From Planctomycetota bacterium (GTDB lineage Bacteria > Planctomycetota > Planctomycetia > Gemmatales > Gemmataceae), in assembly GCA_021413735.1 (NCBI GenBank), contig JAIOPV010000158.1, positions 1 through 64,000 of the forward strand: 64,000 nucleotides of DNA. Direction: 5' to 3'. Positions 1,293 through 7,043 of the stretch are shown piece after piece. Numbering within the stretch: position 1 is the stretch's first letter; every line of letters starts with the position of its first letter. A model generated the notes under the pieces. That model saw only the letters and a program-made list of their open reading frames with translations, was not told the origin of the DNA and made no database searches. The position numbers and the translations under genes are program-made.

Positions 1293-1361
1293 CGCTTGCG
1301 CTCCGTAGAATCCCCAAAGCTGACTTCTGCGATAGCTGGGGCGAACTGCACGGAGAGCGAC

Positions 1362-2597
1362 GTGGGACAACAGGTTTTCCAACATACGCTGGCGAACGGG
1401 CTAGTGCTGCTCGCGGAGCGCATGGAACACGTTCGCTCGGCGGCGTTCAACTTCCTCGTGCCCGCCGGCTGCGCGAACGATCCAACCGGTCAATTGGGTG
1501 TCGCCTCCATTCTTGCCGACATGATGACTCGCGGTGCGGGTGATCGCGATAGCCGCGAGTTGTCGCTCGCACTCGACGGGCTTGGCGTTGACCGTGACGA
1601 AAGCGTCGGCGTTTACAACATGCGTTTCTGGGGTTCGACACTCGCTCGAAACGTCCCCTCCGCCCTCGAAATCTATGCAGACATTCTTTTGCGTCCGCAC
1701 TTGCCCGAAGACGAACTCGAACCGGTTCAGTCGCTGGCGATTCAGGACATTGAAGCCCTCGAAGACGCCCCGCAAGCGAAGGTGATGATCGAATTGCGGA
1801 AGCGATATTACCCGTCGCCGTTGGACAAGGACCGTCGCGGCAAGATCGAAGACATCGAGGCTCTGACTCCTGCTGCGGTGCGCGGTTACCACACGAAGTT
1901 GTTCCGCCCGAACGGCTCGATTCTGTCGGTAGCCGGGAATGTCGAGTGGGAAGCGCTGAAGGCTCAGGTTGAGCGGCTGTTCGGCGGATGGTCGCGTGGA
2001 ACCGAGGCTGATCTCACTCCCGAAGCCGACAAACCGACATCGGGGCACCTCGCGAAAGAAACCGCACAGACTCACATCGCGATTGCGTATCCAAGCGTGC
2101 CCGTCACGCATCCGGAATACTACGCTGCACGCGCTGCCGAGAGCGTGCTTTCGGGCGGCATGAGTGCTCGACTGTTCACGGAAGTTCGCGAAAAGCGTGG
2201 GCTGTGTTATTCCGTTGGCGTGCGTCACGAGACGTTCAAGGATCGCGGCACAATCATTGGTTACGCAGGCACCGGAGCCGAACGCGCACAACAAACGCTC
2301 GACGTGACGATGGCCGAACTTCGCAAGCTGAAAGATGGCGTGACCGACGACGAAATCCTTCGAGTGAAAGCCGGGTTGAAGTCGTCGCTCATCATGCAGG
2401 AAGAATCGACCTCGTCGCGTGCGGGTTCGATCGCTTCGGACTGGTACCACCTTGGCCGTGTGCGGTCATTCGATGAAGTTCAGGCAGCGATTGATGGCCT
2501 CACGCCGTCGATGGTCGTCGAACACCTCGCGAGGTTCCCGGTCAAGGATGTCACGCTCGTAACGCTCGGCCCTGCCCCGCTGACCATGCCGGATTGA
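1362..2597 (+). CDS. M16-family peptidase subunit without the zinc motif (alpha-like)
   Basis: This 411-residue pitrilysin/MPP-like protein has two M16 half domains. The HxxEH zinc motif, which would fall at residues 49-53, reads SILAD, so His, Glu and His are all replaced. The C-terminal half keeps the substrate-binding Arg/Tyr segment (MSARLFTEVREKRGLCYSV). This matches the non-catalytic subunit of heterodimeric bacterial M16 peptidases. GTG at 1362 is chosen because GGAGAG lies 4 bases upstream and the M16 fold starts right there; the frame is open further upstream. The catalytic partner is two genes downstream. Location is probably cytoplasmic, as no signal peptide is seen. Confidence 0.9.
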   Translation: MGQQVFQHTLANGLVLLAERMEHVRSAAFNFLVPAGCANDPTGQLGVASILADMMTRGAGDRDSRELSLALDGLGVDRDESVGVYNMRFWGSTLARNVPSALEIYADILLRPHLPEDELEPVQSLAIQDIEALEDAPQAKVMIELRKRYYPSPLDKDRRGKIEDIEALTPAAVRGYHTKLFRPNGSILSVAGNVEWEALKAQVERLFGGWSRGTEADLTPEADKPTSGHLAKETAQTHIAIAYPSVPVTHPEYYAARAAESVLSGGMSARLFTEVREKRGLCYSVGVRHETFKDRGTIIGYAGTGAERAQQTLDVTMAELRKLKDGVTDDEILRVKAGLKSSLIMQEESTSSRAGSIASDWYHLGRVRSFDEVQAAIDGLTPSMVVEHLARFPVKDVTLVTLGPAPLTMPD

Positions 2598-2750: not shown

Positions 2751-4004
2751 ATGCCATTCCATCACACACGCCTTCCGAACGGCCTCAGCATCATCGGTGA
2801 AACCAGCCCCTCGGCCCGGTCGGTGGCCATTGGGTTCTTCGTTCGCACGGGCTCCCGCGACGAAACGGTTCCCGAAGCTGGCGTCTCGCACTTCCTCGAA
2901 CACATGATGTTCAAGGGCACGCCACGCCGCACAGCCGAGCAGGTGAACCTCGATTTCGACCGCATCGGTTCCAGTCCGAACGCCTACACCAGCGAAGAGA
3001 ACACCGTCTACTACGCGGCCGGGTTGCCCGAATATCTGCCACAAATGGTCGATATCCTGGGGGACATTCTGCGGCCGAGTCTTCGCGATGATGACTTCAA
3101 CACCGAGAAGAAGGTCATCATCGAAGAGATCAAGATGTATGAAGACCAACCTGGTTCAGTGGCCGGCGAAAATGCTCGCCGCATCTACTACGGCGGTCAC
3201 CCGCTTGGCAACAGCGTACTCGGCACGCAAGAAAGTGTCGGTGCACTGACCCGCGACCAGATGCAGGCGTACTTCACACGCCGTTATGCCGCGAACAACA
3301 TCATCCTGTCAGTAGCGGGGAACTACGACTGGAACCAGTTGGTGTCGCTCGCAACGGCAGCGTGTTCGGGTTGGAACACGGCCGAGGTTGGCCGCACGCA
3401 CCGCACCGAGTGGAGCGGCGTTGGCGGACTGCATGTTCTCACTCGCCCGAAGGTTCAGCAGGAATACGCTCTGTTCCTCGCCGGCGGACCACCCGCCGAC
3501 TCGAAGATGCGCTACGCGGCCGACACGATGGCACTCGCGGTCGGCGACGATTCCGGAAGCCATCTTTACTGGGCACTGATCGACCCAGGTCTCGCGGACT
3601 CGGCCGATTGCAGTTACTACGAGAACGACGGCAGCGGCATTGTCTATGCTTCGTTCACGAGCGAACTCGAACAGGCTGAATCGAATCTGCGGATTGTTCG
3701 CAAAGTGCTGGCAGACGTTCAACGCAACGGTCTGACTGCGGACGAACTGAAACTGGCGAAGAGCAAGATCACGTCGCGGTGGGTTCGCGGCAGCGAGCGA
3801 CCGATGGGCCGTATGAACGCGATCGCTTCCATGTGGGCCTACACCGGCGAGTACCGCGATGTCGATAAGGAGCTGGCGAACTACGACGCGGTGACGCTCG
3901 ACGATGTGCGGGCCTACCTCGACAAGTACCCCGTGGATCGACTGACGACCGTGGCTTTCGGCCCCGCAACGGAGCTGGAAGGCGTCGCTGGCAAGGTCGT
4001 GTGA
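2751..4004 (+). CDS. M16-family zinc peptidase, catalytic subunit (beta-like)
   Basis: This 417-residue insulinase-type metallopeptidase has the inverted zinc motif HFLEH (His47, Glu50, His51) and the downstream Glu ligand in IIEEIKMYED (about residue 126). The family cuts peptides inside a closed clam-shell chamber. The Arg/Tyr segment expected in the C-terminal half is missing: the corresponding stretch reads GDDSGSHLYWALIDPGLADS. The upstream subunit supplies it, so the two proteins look like complementary halves of one enzyme, as in characterised bacterial heterodimeric M16 peptidases and mitochondrial MPP. There is no signal peptide. ATG at 2751, preceded by AAGAGAT. Confidence 0.93.
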   Translation: MPFHHTRLPNGLSIIGETSPSARSVAIGFFVRTGSRDETVPEAGVSHFLEHMMFKGTPRRTAEQVNLDFDRIGSSPNAYTSEENTVYYAAGLPEYLPQMVDILGDILRPSLRDDDFNTEKKVIIEEIKMYEDQPGSVAGENARRIYYGGHPLGNSVLGTQESVGALTRDQMQAYFTRRYAANNIILSVAGNYDWNQLVSLATAACSGWNTAEVGRTHRTEWSGVGGLHVLTRPKVQQEYALFLAGGPPADSKMRYAADTMALAVGDDSGSHLYWALIDPGLADSADCSYYENDGSGIVYASFTSELEQAESNLRIVRKVLADVQRNGLTADELKLAKSKITSRWVRGSERPMGRMNAIASMWAYTGEYRDVDKELANYDAVTLDDVRAYLDKYPVDRLTTVAFGPATELEGVAGKVV

Positions 4005-4084: not shown

Positions 4085-4193
4085 TTCGTAGGTCACATCC
4101 AGCCAGCAACAAATTTCCGCACTTCCCTTGGAAATTCCACTCAACCGAGAGACGATGGAAGAGGAAGACGCGCCCGTATCCGGATGCCATCCC

Positions 4194-6962
4194 ATGACAC
4201 ACGCCCGCTTTGCTGCTGTCGCACTGGCCGTTCTGCTTGGCGTTAGCGCTCTCGGTGCGCAAGAGCGCGAGAAAGATGAACCGCGTGTCAAGGAGCCTGC
4301 ACGAACTGAGAAGGTGGACGTTCAGATCCGCTATCGCATTCGAGCCGATCGCGATGAGCGAGTCCGGCAGTTCCGCGGTCTTGAGAAGCATCTCGCGGCC
4401 CTCGGCTTCGAGGATTCCCGCAAGGAAGACCCGGACCTCGACCTCGATATCCTCGATCCGAACGCGGAGCGGTTCACCGGCACCATTACATCGGCGAAGG
4501 TTCTTTCGCTGCTCGACGACCCGCGTGTGCAGCAGATCCTGTTCGCCCCAAGCGGGTACATGTACCCCGAAGATCGCAGCAAGGGCGTGCCGATTCGTGT
4601 GGTGCTGCGTGCCGACATGATCCCAACCGTTCAGCAGGCGTTCCATTTTCAGGTATTGCAGCAACTCGAAAAGCTCGGGTTCCGCGAAGCCCTCGGCTAC
4701 GACACGCAGGGCTACAAGCAACTCAAGGGCACCATCCCGTACAAGTACCTCGACCGACTCGTGAAGGATCTGCGAACCGAACCCGCCGGCTGGTTCTTCA
4801 CCGACACGCCCACCGATCGTTTGCCGCGACCCTTCGCTGATCGCAATCCGGTTCGCTGGGTTGAGGTGATGCCGTCTGCTGAACCACCCGCTGCGTTTGT
4901 TCCCGAGGTTGTGCCGCCAACGCGAGCCAAGATGCCGCCAGACTTGCGTGCGGTTCTCAATGATCCTGCTCAGAAAGAGATTCCGCTACGGGTCATCGTT
5001 CTGTTCGCGGAACCGATCGACAACAGGCTCGAAGAACTCCGCAATCGACTCACCAGTGGCTTCTCACCGACCGTGAAACGCGACGAGAACAACAACCCGA
5101 TCAAGGGGCCAGATGGTTTGCCGTCGCTCACCGAAGGTGCGGCACTCGATGGTGCGGCCGGCAACCTCGCGAGCATCCGTTTTGACCACCCCAGCGATGT
5201 CGAACGATTCGCGCAGTTCCCAGATGTGCTTTCGATTCGCCTGCCGCGACTCGCGAGCGAAACGGTCACACCGATTCCCGCGCCAGGCAAACCAGCAGCC
5301 GCCAGCGAGGTCCTGAAGGGTTCCGGCGTCGAAGCGATGTTGAAGCTCGGCTACACGGGCGCTGGCGTGAAGGTTCTCGTCATCGGGACTGACTTCACGG
5401 GAGCTGAAAAGCTGTTCGGAAATGGGCTGCCGAAGAACACACAGATTCTCGACCTCACTACCGAGTTGAACCCGGAAATTCTGCCGTCGCCCGCCGACCC
5501 GAACCGTGCTGGTCTCGGCACCTCGGCTGCTCTCGCTGTGGCGCTTGCCGCTCCGGATGCTGAGTTGGTTCTGGTTCGCATCGACCCAGGGGCGATCTTC
5601 CAGTTGTTCGGCATCATCCGCGTCGTTCGCAAAGAAGCGACTTTCTCGGATGCCCTGCGATCCCGACTGGTCGATATCTCGAACAAGACCGCCGAGTTGA
5701 CCAAGCGGAAGGAAGTCGCGATTACCGAATATCGGCTGGCATTCGATGACCTTGCGGACGATGAACCGACCAAGGCCCGCCGTGTGCGAGCCAAGGCCGC
5801 GCTTGATATCGTTCTCGCTGAACAGGTCGCCCTCACGCAGCGAATCGACCGCTTCAACGTGTTCCAGAAGCGTGTCGTTTCCACACTGATTGGTGCGCGT
5901 GTGATCGTGAATACGCTCGAATGGGAAAGCGGATATCCGCTCGATGCGCTGAGTCAATTGAGCCGAACGCTCGATGCACTCGCCGTGCCGCAGCCGCCGC
6001 GAATCGCCAAGCGTGCTGGCGATCCCTTGGCTGGTCCACTGCCCCCGATTGTCTGGGTGCAGGCTGCAAGCGCTGCGGGTGCAACCGTCTGGGGTGGTCC
6101 GTTCCTCGACCCGAACCGCGACACCGCGATGGAGTTCGCTCCGCCTGATCAGAAGCTGCCGCCGATGAACTGGTCGGCCGACATGAACTTCGTCGGCTTC
6201 CAGAGCCCGACCGGCGAAACCGTCGCTGATCTCCCGGCTGGTGCGAAGGTGCGATTCACGATTCAATGGCGTGAGCCGACCGATCCGAACTTCCCCACGG
6301 TCGATCGTCCATCGTTCCCGGTCGTGCTGCGATTGTTCCGCCAACTCGACCCCAAGGGCGAGAAGATTCCGAGCGACGAAATGGCTGAAGAAGCTCGTTC
6401 GGCAGGCGGACCATATCCGCTGTTGTTCACGCGAACGTACGTCGTCTTCGAGCAAGTGCTGGATTTCACCGTGAAGGATCCTGGTCGCTATGCTCTGATC
6501 GTGGCGAAGGGCTACGAGCCTGAGGCATTGCTGCCCGGATTGAAGCGGAACATCGAGGTTCACCCGCGAATCGTCATCGAGACGCTTTCCGCCAAGCCCG
6601 GCGAGGGGCGAGCCGTGTTCCGTTCGTACATCACTCCGGAAGCTGGCGTCGGCATCCCCGGCGACTCCTCGGGTGCCATCACCATTGGCGTGCCTGTGAA
6701 GGGCGAACTCTTCGGTGGTGGAACTGGTTTGAGCTTGCGAGGCAAACCCGATCTGTTCGGGCCAGACTCCATCGAGGTCAGCGGTCCGGGTGTCCGAGGC
6801 ACCGGCATCGCCACGGGCTTTGTCGGCGGCATGGCTGCGGGCTTGGTTCAGGCTGGCGCTGCTGGGGCGAACCCGTTCAAGTCCGCAGGATTCGATCCCG
6901 GCAAGATGGCGATCATGCCCGAAGTTTGGCTGAAGATTTTGAAACCTGCCGCGAAGCCGTGA
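4194..6962 (+). CDS. Secreted subtilase-fold (S8) pseudoprotease with repeated N-terminal modules
   Basis: The 922-residue product starts with a signal peptide (MTHARFAAVALAVLLG, cleavage near LGAQ). Residues about 41-119, 131-201 and 262-357 look like three copies of one alpha/beta module, each opening with a strand such as VQIRYRI or IPLRVIVLF and ending near a segment like VQQILF. A subtilase-like region follows: GYTGAGVKVLVIGTDFTG (384-403) aligns with the Asp motif, GLGTSAALAVA (440-450) with the GHGT His motif, and KPDL...RGTGIATGFVGG (869-879) with the GTSxA Ser motif. The catalytic positions are Gly398, Leu441 and Gly871, so the triad is gone. The frame opens at 4128; ATG 4194 is preferred because the signal peptide starts there. 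Confidence 0.75.
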   Translation: MTHARFAAVALAVLLGVSALGAQEREKDEPRVKEPARTEKVDVQIRYRIRADRDERVRQFRGLEKHLAALGFEDSRKEDPDLDLDILDPNAERFTGTITSAKVLSLLDDPRVQQILFAPSGYMYPEDRSKGVPIRVVLRADMIPTVQQAFHFQVLQQLEKLGFREALGYDTQGYKQLKGTIPYKYLDRLVKDLRTEPAGWFFTDTPTDRLPRPFADRNPVRWVEVMPSAEPPAAFVPEVVPPTRAKMPPDLRAVLNDPAQKEIPLRVIVLFAEPIDNRLEELRNRLTSGFSPTVKRDENNNPIKGPDGLPSLTEGAALDGAAGNLASIRFDHPSDVERFAQFPDVLSIRLPRLASETVTPIPAPGKPAAASEVLKGSGVEAMLKLGYTGAGVKVLVIGTDFTGAEKLFGNGLPKNTQILDLTTELNPEILPSPADPNRAGLGTSAALAVALAAPDAELVLVRIDPGAIFQLFGIIRVVRKEATFSDALRSRLVDISNKTAELTKRKEVAITEYRLAFDDLADDEPTKARRVRAKAALDIVLAEQVALTQRIDRFNVFQKRVVSTLIGARVIVNTLEWESGYPLDALSQLSRTLDALAVPQPPRIAKRAGDPLAGPLPPIVWVQAASAAGATVWGGPFLDPNRDTAMEFAPPDQKLPPMNWSADMNFVGFQSPTGETVADLPAGAKVRFTIQWREPTDPNFPTVDRPSFPVVLRLFRQLDPKGEKIPSDEMAEEARSAGGPYPLLFTRTYVVFEQVLDFTVKDPGRYALIVAKGYEPEALLPGLKRNIEVHPRIVIETLSAKPGEGRAVFRSYITPEAGVGIPGDSSGAITIGVPVKGELFGGGTGLSLRGKPDLFGPDSIEVSGPGVRGTGIATGFVGGMAAGLVQAGAAGANPFKSAGFDPGKMAIMPEVWLKILKPAAKP

Positions 6963-6963
6963 G

Positions 6964-7043
6964 TTGGCGAGCGGGGGACGTCAGTCCCCCCGGTGAATCG
7001 CAATTGGATCAGAACCGGAGGATTGACGTCCCCCGCTCGCCAA
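6964..7043. repeat. 20-bp perfect inverted repeat between convergent genes
   Basis: Arms at 6964-6983 and 7024-7043 are perfect reverse complements, separated by 40 bases that hold a second, shorter GGGGGAC/GTCCCCC-type pairing. It fills nearly the whole gap between two convergent genes, so it can act as a two-way terminator. Its sequence (GCGAGCGGGGGACGTCA) looks like a dispersed REP-like element. Confidence 0.8.

Follow-up and report, generated by a model that had tools for sequence, protein, structure and literature searches.

What keeps a subtilase-like protein in a genome once the residues needed for cutting have all been replaced? The question is raised by a gene in a 64,000-nucleotide stretch of DNA (hereafter the window) from a planctomycete of the family Gemmataceae, order Gemmatales (Planctomycetota bacterium, assembly GCA_021413735.1, contig JAIOPV010000158.1, positions 1 to 64,000). 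The gene lies at 4194..6962 on the forward strand, as do its parts and the M16 neighbours described below, and encodes 922 amino acids. The longest open frame at this place (4128-6962) begins at TTG 4128; we preferred the ATG at 4194 as the start because it coincides with the beginning of a stretch resembling a signal peptide and of the alignment with two near relatives, and residues are numbered with this Met as residue 1. A preliminary description of the locus had read the product as a secreted protein with the fold of family S8 peptidases (subtilases), with all three catalytic residues replaced and the fold conserved for another purpose.

In alignments with intact S8 proteases, Gly398 (5385..5387) was found at the position of the catalytic Asp, Leu441 (5514..5516) at that of the catalytic His, Gly871 (6804..6806) at that of the catalytic Ser and Ala627 (6072..6074) at that of the oxyanion Asn. 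In all ten intact S8 proteases compared, which come from the same bacterial family, these positions are occupied by D, H, N and S. The three landmark segments sit where the preliminary description had put them, its assignment of Gly398, Leu441 and Gly871 to the triad positions was borne out by the alignment with these ten sequences, and the oxyanion Asn, whose absence it had noted, proved to be replaced by Ala627.

Single-sequence searches with the window protein returned no S8 match in Pfam, NCBIfam or the Protein Data Bank (PDB). Such negatives would falsely suggest that there is no relation to S8, and family profiles were therefore needed. A search of 95 genomes of the family yielded relatives of full length and, in addition, weak matches that included five proteins called Peptidase_S8 by Pfam (expectation values, E, of 1.4e-19 to 2.1e-26). 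A profile of 45 family members (A2) aligned with a profile of five intact S8 proteases (A3) over 344 columns, with an hhalign probability of 99.7% and E 7.8e-27. Against PDB sequences, A2 matched subtilisin BPN' at E 2.3e-11, with the Asp/His and the Ser stretches both in register. Taken singly, 17 of the 45 members matched PF00082 at E<=1 (best 1.2e-9), the window protein not among them. A further profile was restricted to 30 members without catalytic Asp, His or Ser, which excludes a signal coming from members that keep the triad; this dead-only profile still aligned with the ten intact S8 proteases (hhalign 97.9%, E 3.7e-13) and matched within the same set of ten in HMMER at E 5.3e-20 to 2.5e-14, while the reversed profile, used as a control, gave 0.2% and E 0.3. 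The S8 similarity that the preliminary description had expected is thus above noise in family profiles, though not for the window protein alone, and it extends along the Asp, His, Asn and Ser segments. Judged from its sequence, the window protein is an S8 homologue by descent and, by the features tested, not an S8 peptidase, having neither the Asp-His-Ser triad nor the oxyanion Asn. It is presumably devoid of proteolysis: an acyl-enzyme should no longer form, because the nucleophile, the general base, the Asp and the oxyanion Asn have all been replaced.

The state of the active site was then compared across 82 aligned rows from 81 of the 90 genomes with a match; nine genomes (G007, G019, G029, G030, G048, G080, G089, G090 and G091) were omitted as split, partial or not fetched. 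Asp, His and Ser are all kept in 11 rows, eight of them with Asn and three with Asp at the Asn place. One residue of the triad is lost in 6 rows, two in 13 and all three in 52, and all four residues, including the Asn, are gone in 48; 32 of the 38 genera have no row with a full triad. The Ser column, the placement of which depends on the alignment in very divergent rows, is empty in 16 of the 82 rows; among these, L109 and L122 run off the contig and L060 is cut short by a stop codon in frame. Versions in which the contig continues but no Ser segment can be recognised were seen at L103-L108, in the second family of the order, and at the g36, g26 and g22 loci, in some genera of the Gemmataceae.

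In a gene tree computed after removal of the columns surrounding the four sites, the window protein belongs to a clade of 31 rows from seven genera with a Shimodaira-Hasegawa-like approximate likelihood ratio test (SH-aLRT) value of 100. Asp and Ser are absent from all 31 rows of this dead clade and His from 30, and Asn is kept in two. The catalytic loss is old and common to the seven genera. If regain is forbidden, the triad was lost 11-12 times over the whole tree and Asp alone 10 times, counts that are estimates, as the tree is a quick one with some long branches. The preliminary description had asked whether homologues in other Gemmataceae carry the same losses, and had allowed for a different outcome, in which homologues are intact and this copy alone has recently been mutated. 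Intact homologues do exist (11 of 82 rows), but a lone recent mutation does not agree with a loss common to 31 rows.

Selection on the family is purifying. The ratio of nonsynonymous to synonymous substitution rates (dN/dS) between the window gene and its three nearest relatives was 0.06, 0.10 and 0.21, at synonymous divergences (dS) of 1.2-1.7 that are near saturation. Four other pairs of dead members gave 0.10 (dS 0.21), 0.06 (dS 0.17), 0.15 (dS 0.69) and 0.09 (dS 1.26), the first two at a dS that is not saturated, and a further pair, in which Asp is kept while His and Ser are gone, gave 0.15. Two triad-keeping pairs had values of 0.17 and 0.19; in a triad-keeping pair of little divergence the core reached 0.39, from very few changes. 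For codons no more than about seven residues away from one of the four old sites, dN/dS was 0.045-0.10 in the three window pairs, a constraint at least as strong as in the rest of the gene. The claim that the protein is conserved for another purpose therefore gains ground to this extent, that the gene is not decaying but kept by selection.

This constraint has not preserved the catalytic positions. Within the dead clade the old His column is among the most variable of the core (96th percentile; T, S, A, L, G, R, M, H, Q, D and P all occur, Thr being commonest with 9 of 31 rows). At the old Asp position no residues other than Gly, Ala and Val were seen, and the old Ser position is taken by Gly in 20 and by Ala in 8 of the 31 rows, with Met, Asp and Ile once each. 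Other residues are fixed throughout the family. All 82 rows, those of the 11 triad-keeping members included, have Asp420 and Arg462, and Glu694 is found in all 80 rows that have a letter there, triad-keeping members again among them; the compact S8 proteases have Ser, mostly Asn and mixed residues, respectively, at these three places. Trp577 (75 of 82) and Gly580 (76 of 82) are common to the intact S8 proteases as well (10 of 10 and 9 of 10). No His, Ser or Cys reaches 90% among the columns filled in at least 70 of the 82 rows, none is found among the 63 invariant positions of the dead clade, and so no replacement triad is apparent. A further difference from the compact proteases was noticed at position 400 (window 5391-5393), two residues after the old Asp, where 78 of the 82 members have Asp or Glu and 8 of the 10 compact S8 proteases have Gly. 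That the family conserves the same residues with or without the triad, and not the catalytic apparatus, is the main argument for the order of events that we infer, short of proof: a non-proteolytic function would have come first and made catalysis dispensable.

The family is a regular component of Gemmatales genomes. Its profile detected it in 90 of 102 genomes of the order, in 69 of the 71 good genomes and in 40 of 44 genera; members were present in 83 of 95 genomes of the window's family and in 7 of 7 of the second family (a first search had given 85 of 95, taking in G032 and G064, which are matched only by a compact S8 protease). The copy number is normally one per genome. G004 has two copies (L046 and L061), one of full length without Asp, His and Ser, the other without the Ser segment but with His kept, and the copy L060 of G081, with its in-frame TAA, is possibly a broken gene or an assembly error. 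Beyond the order we searched samples drawn evenly from the larger groups, with at most two candidates scored per genome. In the class sample of 397 genomes, 100 matched at 1e-5, and the 8 matches outside the order were short stretches over the Ser segment, as expected from ordinary S8 proteases; in the phylum sample of 392 genomes nothing but the window's own genome matched at a cutoff of 1e-15. No similar protein was found on the plasmids searched. The family is thus probably, if not provably, absent outside the order Gemmatales.

The N-terminus and the overall architecture bear on where such a protein might act and with which parts. Residues 1-22 (4194..4259) resemble a signal peptide by hydropathy, the basis on which the signal peptide of the preliminary description was found again. 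A strong hydrophobic stretch of 12 residues lies inside the first 45 residues of 74 of 82 members, a count biased upward by the fact that start codons of members were chosen partly by N-terminal hydrophobicity. The most hydrophobic later stretch of 19 residues (mean 1.67) starts at residue 445 and was not read as a membrane span because it is part of the His segment of the core. The protein contains no cysteine. It is probably secreted, to the periplasm or the outside of the cell.

Three modules precede the core: R1 (about residues 38-120, 4305..4553), which is alpha/beta and ferredoxin-like in a model of modest confidence, R2 (about residues 130-225, 4581..4868) and R3 (about residues 258-356, 4965..5261), an alpha/beta module immediately ahead of the core, where a subtilisin would have its propeptide. 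By hhalign, R1 and R2 form a pair of repeats (96.6%, E 5.5e-10), and no sequence link was obtained between R3 and either of them. Profile alignments placed the first part of the core, with the Asp and His segments, at residues 365-465 (5286..5588) and the last part, with the Ser segment, at residues 816-890 (6639..6863). The middle part (residues 568-645, 5895..6128) holds Trp577, Gly580 and the oxyanion segment, and is separated from the first by an insert of about 100 residues (466-567, 5589..5894) that is predicted to be helical and is not present in compact S8 relatives. Between the oxyanion and the Ser segments lies a region of about 170 residues (646-815, 6129..6638) with highly conserved Glu694, Asp728 and Glu753, in place of which compact S8 proteases have a shorter stretch.

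When the N-terminal part was modelled alone, the predicted local distance difference test score (pLDDT) was 60 and R1, R2 and R3 all came out as alpha/beta modules; Foldseek found no match to this model at E<=0.001. On re-alignment, the R1 model matched pro-subtilisin E over residues 6-71 of the latter at Z 7.5, level with further folds of the ferredoxin-like type. The R3 model matched a 112-residue chain of Protein T protease, probably the propeptide of that enzyme, at Z 6.5 and 22% identity, and unrelated folds scored equally well. Inhibitor_I9 of Pfam was not matched at E<=1 by any of 48 R3 sequences or 44 R1-R2 sequences, and an identification of R1-R3 as subtilisin propeptides by sequence is unsupported. 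The modules would be retained uncleaved, because a protein unable to cut cannot process itself.

We consider it likely that the window protein is a secreted pseudoprotease derived from S8 peptidases that works by binding or regulation and not by cutting. Its subtilase core would be set in a larger frame made of the three N-terminal modules, the helical insert and the second insert before the Ser segment. The old cleft, or else the surface of the uncleaved modules and the inserts, would hold a peptide or a partner protein, which might thereby be sensed, presented or restrained. Such a binding role would have been acquired while the family could still cut, and would have made the triad dispensable, with separate losses in different lineages. 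The wider proposition, that an order-wide and normally single-copy S8 family gained binding before it lost proteolysis on about a dozen separate occasions, is put forward tentatively, as a scenario that falls a little short of being probable.

Several results weigh against the binding reading. An AlphaFold2 model of the whole protein, computed from three alignment rows, reached a pLDDT of 38 and did not give the core fold with confidence; the helical insert was among its better parts, and the model was used for no claims about the fold. Apart from the three truncated copies, the other 13 rows with an empty Ser column end or diverge before the Ser segment although the DNA continues. The fold itself is incomplete in those lineages, since the Ser segment is gone while the contig goes on, so that the N-terminal modules, and not the old cleft, may carry the function. 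The number of losses depends on the assumption that the triad is never regained; with unordered parsimony, 4 changes of the full triad suffice. Neighbouring genes differ between genera, so that the genomic context names no partner. The compact type of S8 protease, which might have served as a partner, was found at E 1e-60 in 32 of the 95 genomes of the family and not found in 63.

Among other explanations, a scaffold or structural protein of the cell envelope, in which a rigid core carries the N-terminal modules and the helical insert and the old cleft binds nothing, is a possibility to be taken seriously, though the less probable one. It overlaps with the binding reading, and our confidence in the one does not exclude the other. 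It would account for the hypervariable His position, for the several lineages that keep the N-terminal modules but lack the Ser segment altogether, and for the conservation of R1 and R2 in the dead clade (0.65 and 0.62), which equals that of the core segments (0.59-0.66). It is less easily reconciled with Trp577 and Gly580, which remain conserved and come, in the alignment, after the cleft-lining strand of subtilisin, with the constraint on codons near the four old sites, or with the location of the invariant Asp420, Arg462 and Glu694 in the core and the second insert. As a special case of the binding reading, the protein might inhibit another S8 protease in trans or help it to fold, with the modules serving as free propeptides and the dead core as a decoy. 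The structural matches of the R1 and R3 models to pro-subtilisin E and to the Protein T protease chain point this way, and other S8 proteases do exist, one of them in the window's own genome. Those matches stay below Z 8, however, and score no better than ribosomal protein S6 and similar folds of the ferredoxin-like type; Inhibitor_I9 is unmatched, and most genomes of the family lack a compact S8 protease detectable at the cutoff used, although a less similar S8 protease could still be the partner. We regard this role as unlikely.

It is more improbable still that the protein is still an enzyme whose active site has moved or is of another kind, built for instance on the acidic position 400 or on Asp420, Glu694, Asp728 and Glu753. 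The acidic residue at position 400, which distinguishes the family from most compact S8 proteases, and the conservation of several carboxylates would suit such a site, but no conserved Ser, His or Cys is available as a nucleophile or base, and Asp420 and Arg462 may equally well form a structural salt bridge between neighbouring strands. Decay of the gene in the window's organism, which the disappearance of every catalytic residue might suggest, has a negligible probability in view of the dN/dS of 0.06-0.21, the open frame, the 63 positions that do not vary among the 31 rows of the seven-genus clade and the presence of the family in nearly all good genomes of the order.

The nearest functional precedent for a binding or regulatory pseudoprotease of this descent is provided by CspC and CspA of Clostridioides difficile, S8 pseudoproteases of spore germination that have kept the fold and lost catalytic residues. 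According to PMC6636752, CspC has Gly485 at the Ser position and Thr170 at the His position, retains Asp105 and an uncleaved prodomain, bears a jelly-roll insert of roughly 130 residues in its subtilase domain, and works in a system with the intact CspB. The Gemmatales protein resembles it in that the triad is replaced while subtilase sequence is retained, and the residues commonest in the dead clade, Gly at the Ser position (20 of 31) and Thr at the His position (9 of 31), are those of CspC. Ahead of its Ser segment it has a stretch of about 170 residues that might, or might not, correspond to the jelly-roll insert of CspC. Unlike CspC, the Gemmatales protein has lost the Asp too, and it has three N-terminal modules, a helical insert and no recognised protease partner. 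The losses in Gemmatales appear to be independent of those in C. difficile, given the relatives within the order that keep the triad. A structure of a germination-related subtilisin-like protease (9sj6) matched the family profile at E 4.9e-6, with ordinary subtilisins scoring better. Gemmatales are not known as spore formers.

The nearest intact relatives found were the compact S8 proteases of Gemmataceae, of which ten (L063-L067 and L110-L114) were checked for the triad. They align with the family from Asp to Ser and have the Trp and Gly in common with it; all ten have D, H, N and S, in frames of 433-597 residues without R1-R3 or the helical insert. Subtilisin BPN', the best solved structure for the family profile, is an active protease that has a single propeptide and lacks these inserts. 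Among the weaker profile matches was a chain of PCSK9 (E 2.5e-4), a subtilase that acts by binding instead of cutting others, keeps its triad and cuts itself once.

Neighbouring genes were examined for a possible partner. Upstream of the gene the preliminary description had seen a pair of M16 peptidase subunits, one of them dead, and had hinted that it mattered. The pair is real, with a subunit without HxxEH at 1296..2597 and one with HFLEH at 2751..4004. It was present, however, at only 3 of 65 loci, which belong to two near relatives (upstream DNA is shorter than 2.7 kb at 11 of these 65 loci), and as the neighbourhood is not conserved it was rejected as a functional partner; both subunits are probably unrelated to the gene. 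A short-chain dehydrogenase lies divergently upstream of the family gene in at least 12 genera and downstream in a 13th, and an M20 peptidase lies upstream in at least 7 genera; one example of each was confirmed in Pfam, and the neighbour clusters behind these counts include antisense reading frames and some genomes twice. These recurring neighbours look like inherited gene order and name no partner. The intact compact S8 protease of the window's genome (G000:C59) was also considered, and an obligate partnership with proteases of this type is not supported by their occurrence in 32 of 95 genomes only.

The convergent junction behind the gene (6964-7043), which starts two bases past the stop codon, contains a long hairpin with an RNA folding energy of -66.6 kcal/mol and a z of -9.9. 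A 24-base piece of it has 34 copies in the genome within two mismatches, against 0 for a backward control, and several of these form inverted pairs with starts 43-62 bases apart, as in a palindromic repeat of the repetitive extragenic palindromic (REP) type.

The sequence comparisons support the pseudoprotease reading and extend it beyond a single gene to a family that spans the order and has lost its triad repeatedly. The most likely molecular role would be to bind a partner, be it a peptide or a protein, outside the cytoplasm. S8 pseudoproteases of known role seem to be few; the bacterial ones among the literature matches listed were CspA and CspC of C. difficile, and searches on S8 pseudoproteases, Gemmata and Planctomycetes gave nothing that describes the Gemmatales family among those matches. 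If the proposed history is true, the family would display every grade from an intact Asp-His-Asn-Ser set to the loss of all four residues, in some lineages with the Ser segment deleted. It would then form a natural series in the making of a pseudoprotease, in which the new function would be what active and dead members have in common. A family with and without the triad allows the change from protease to non-enzyme to be tested on natural homologues, and it suggests that Gemmata-like bacteria have a function, probably extracytoplasmic, that has so far gone unrecognised.

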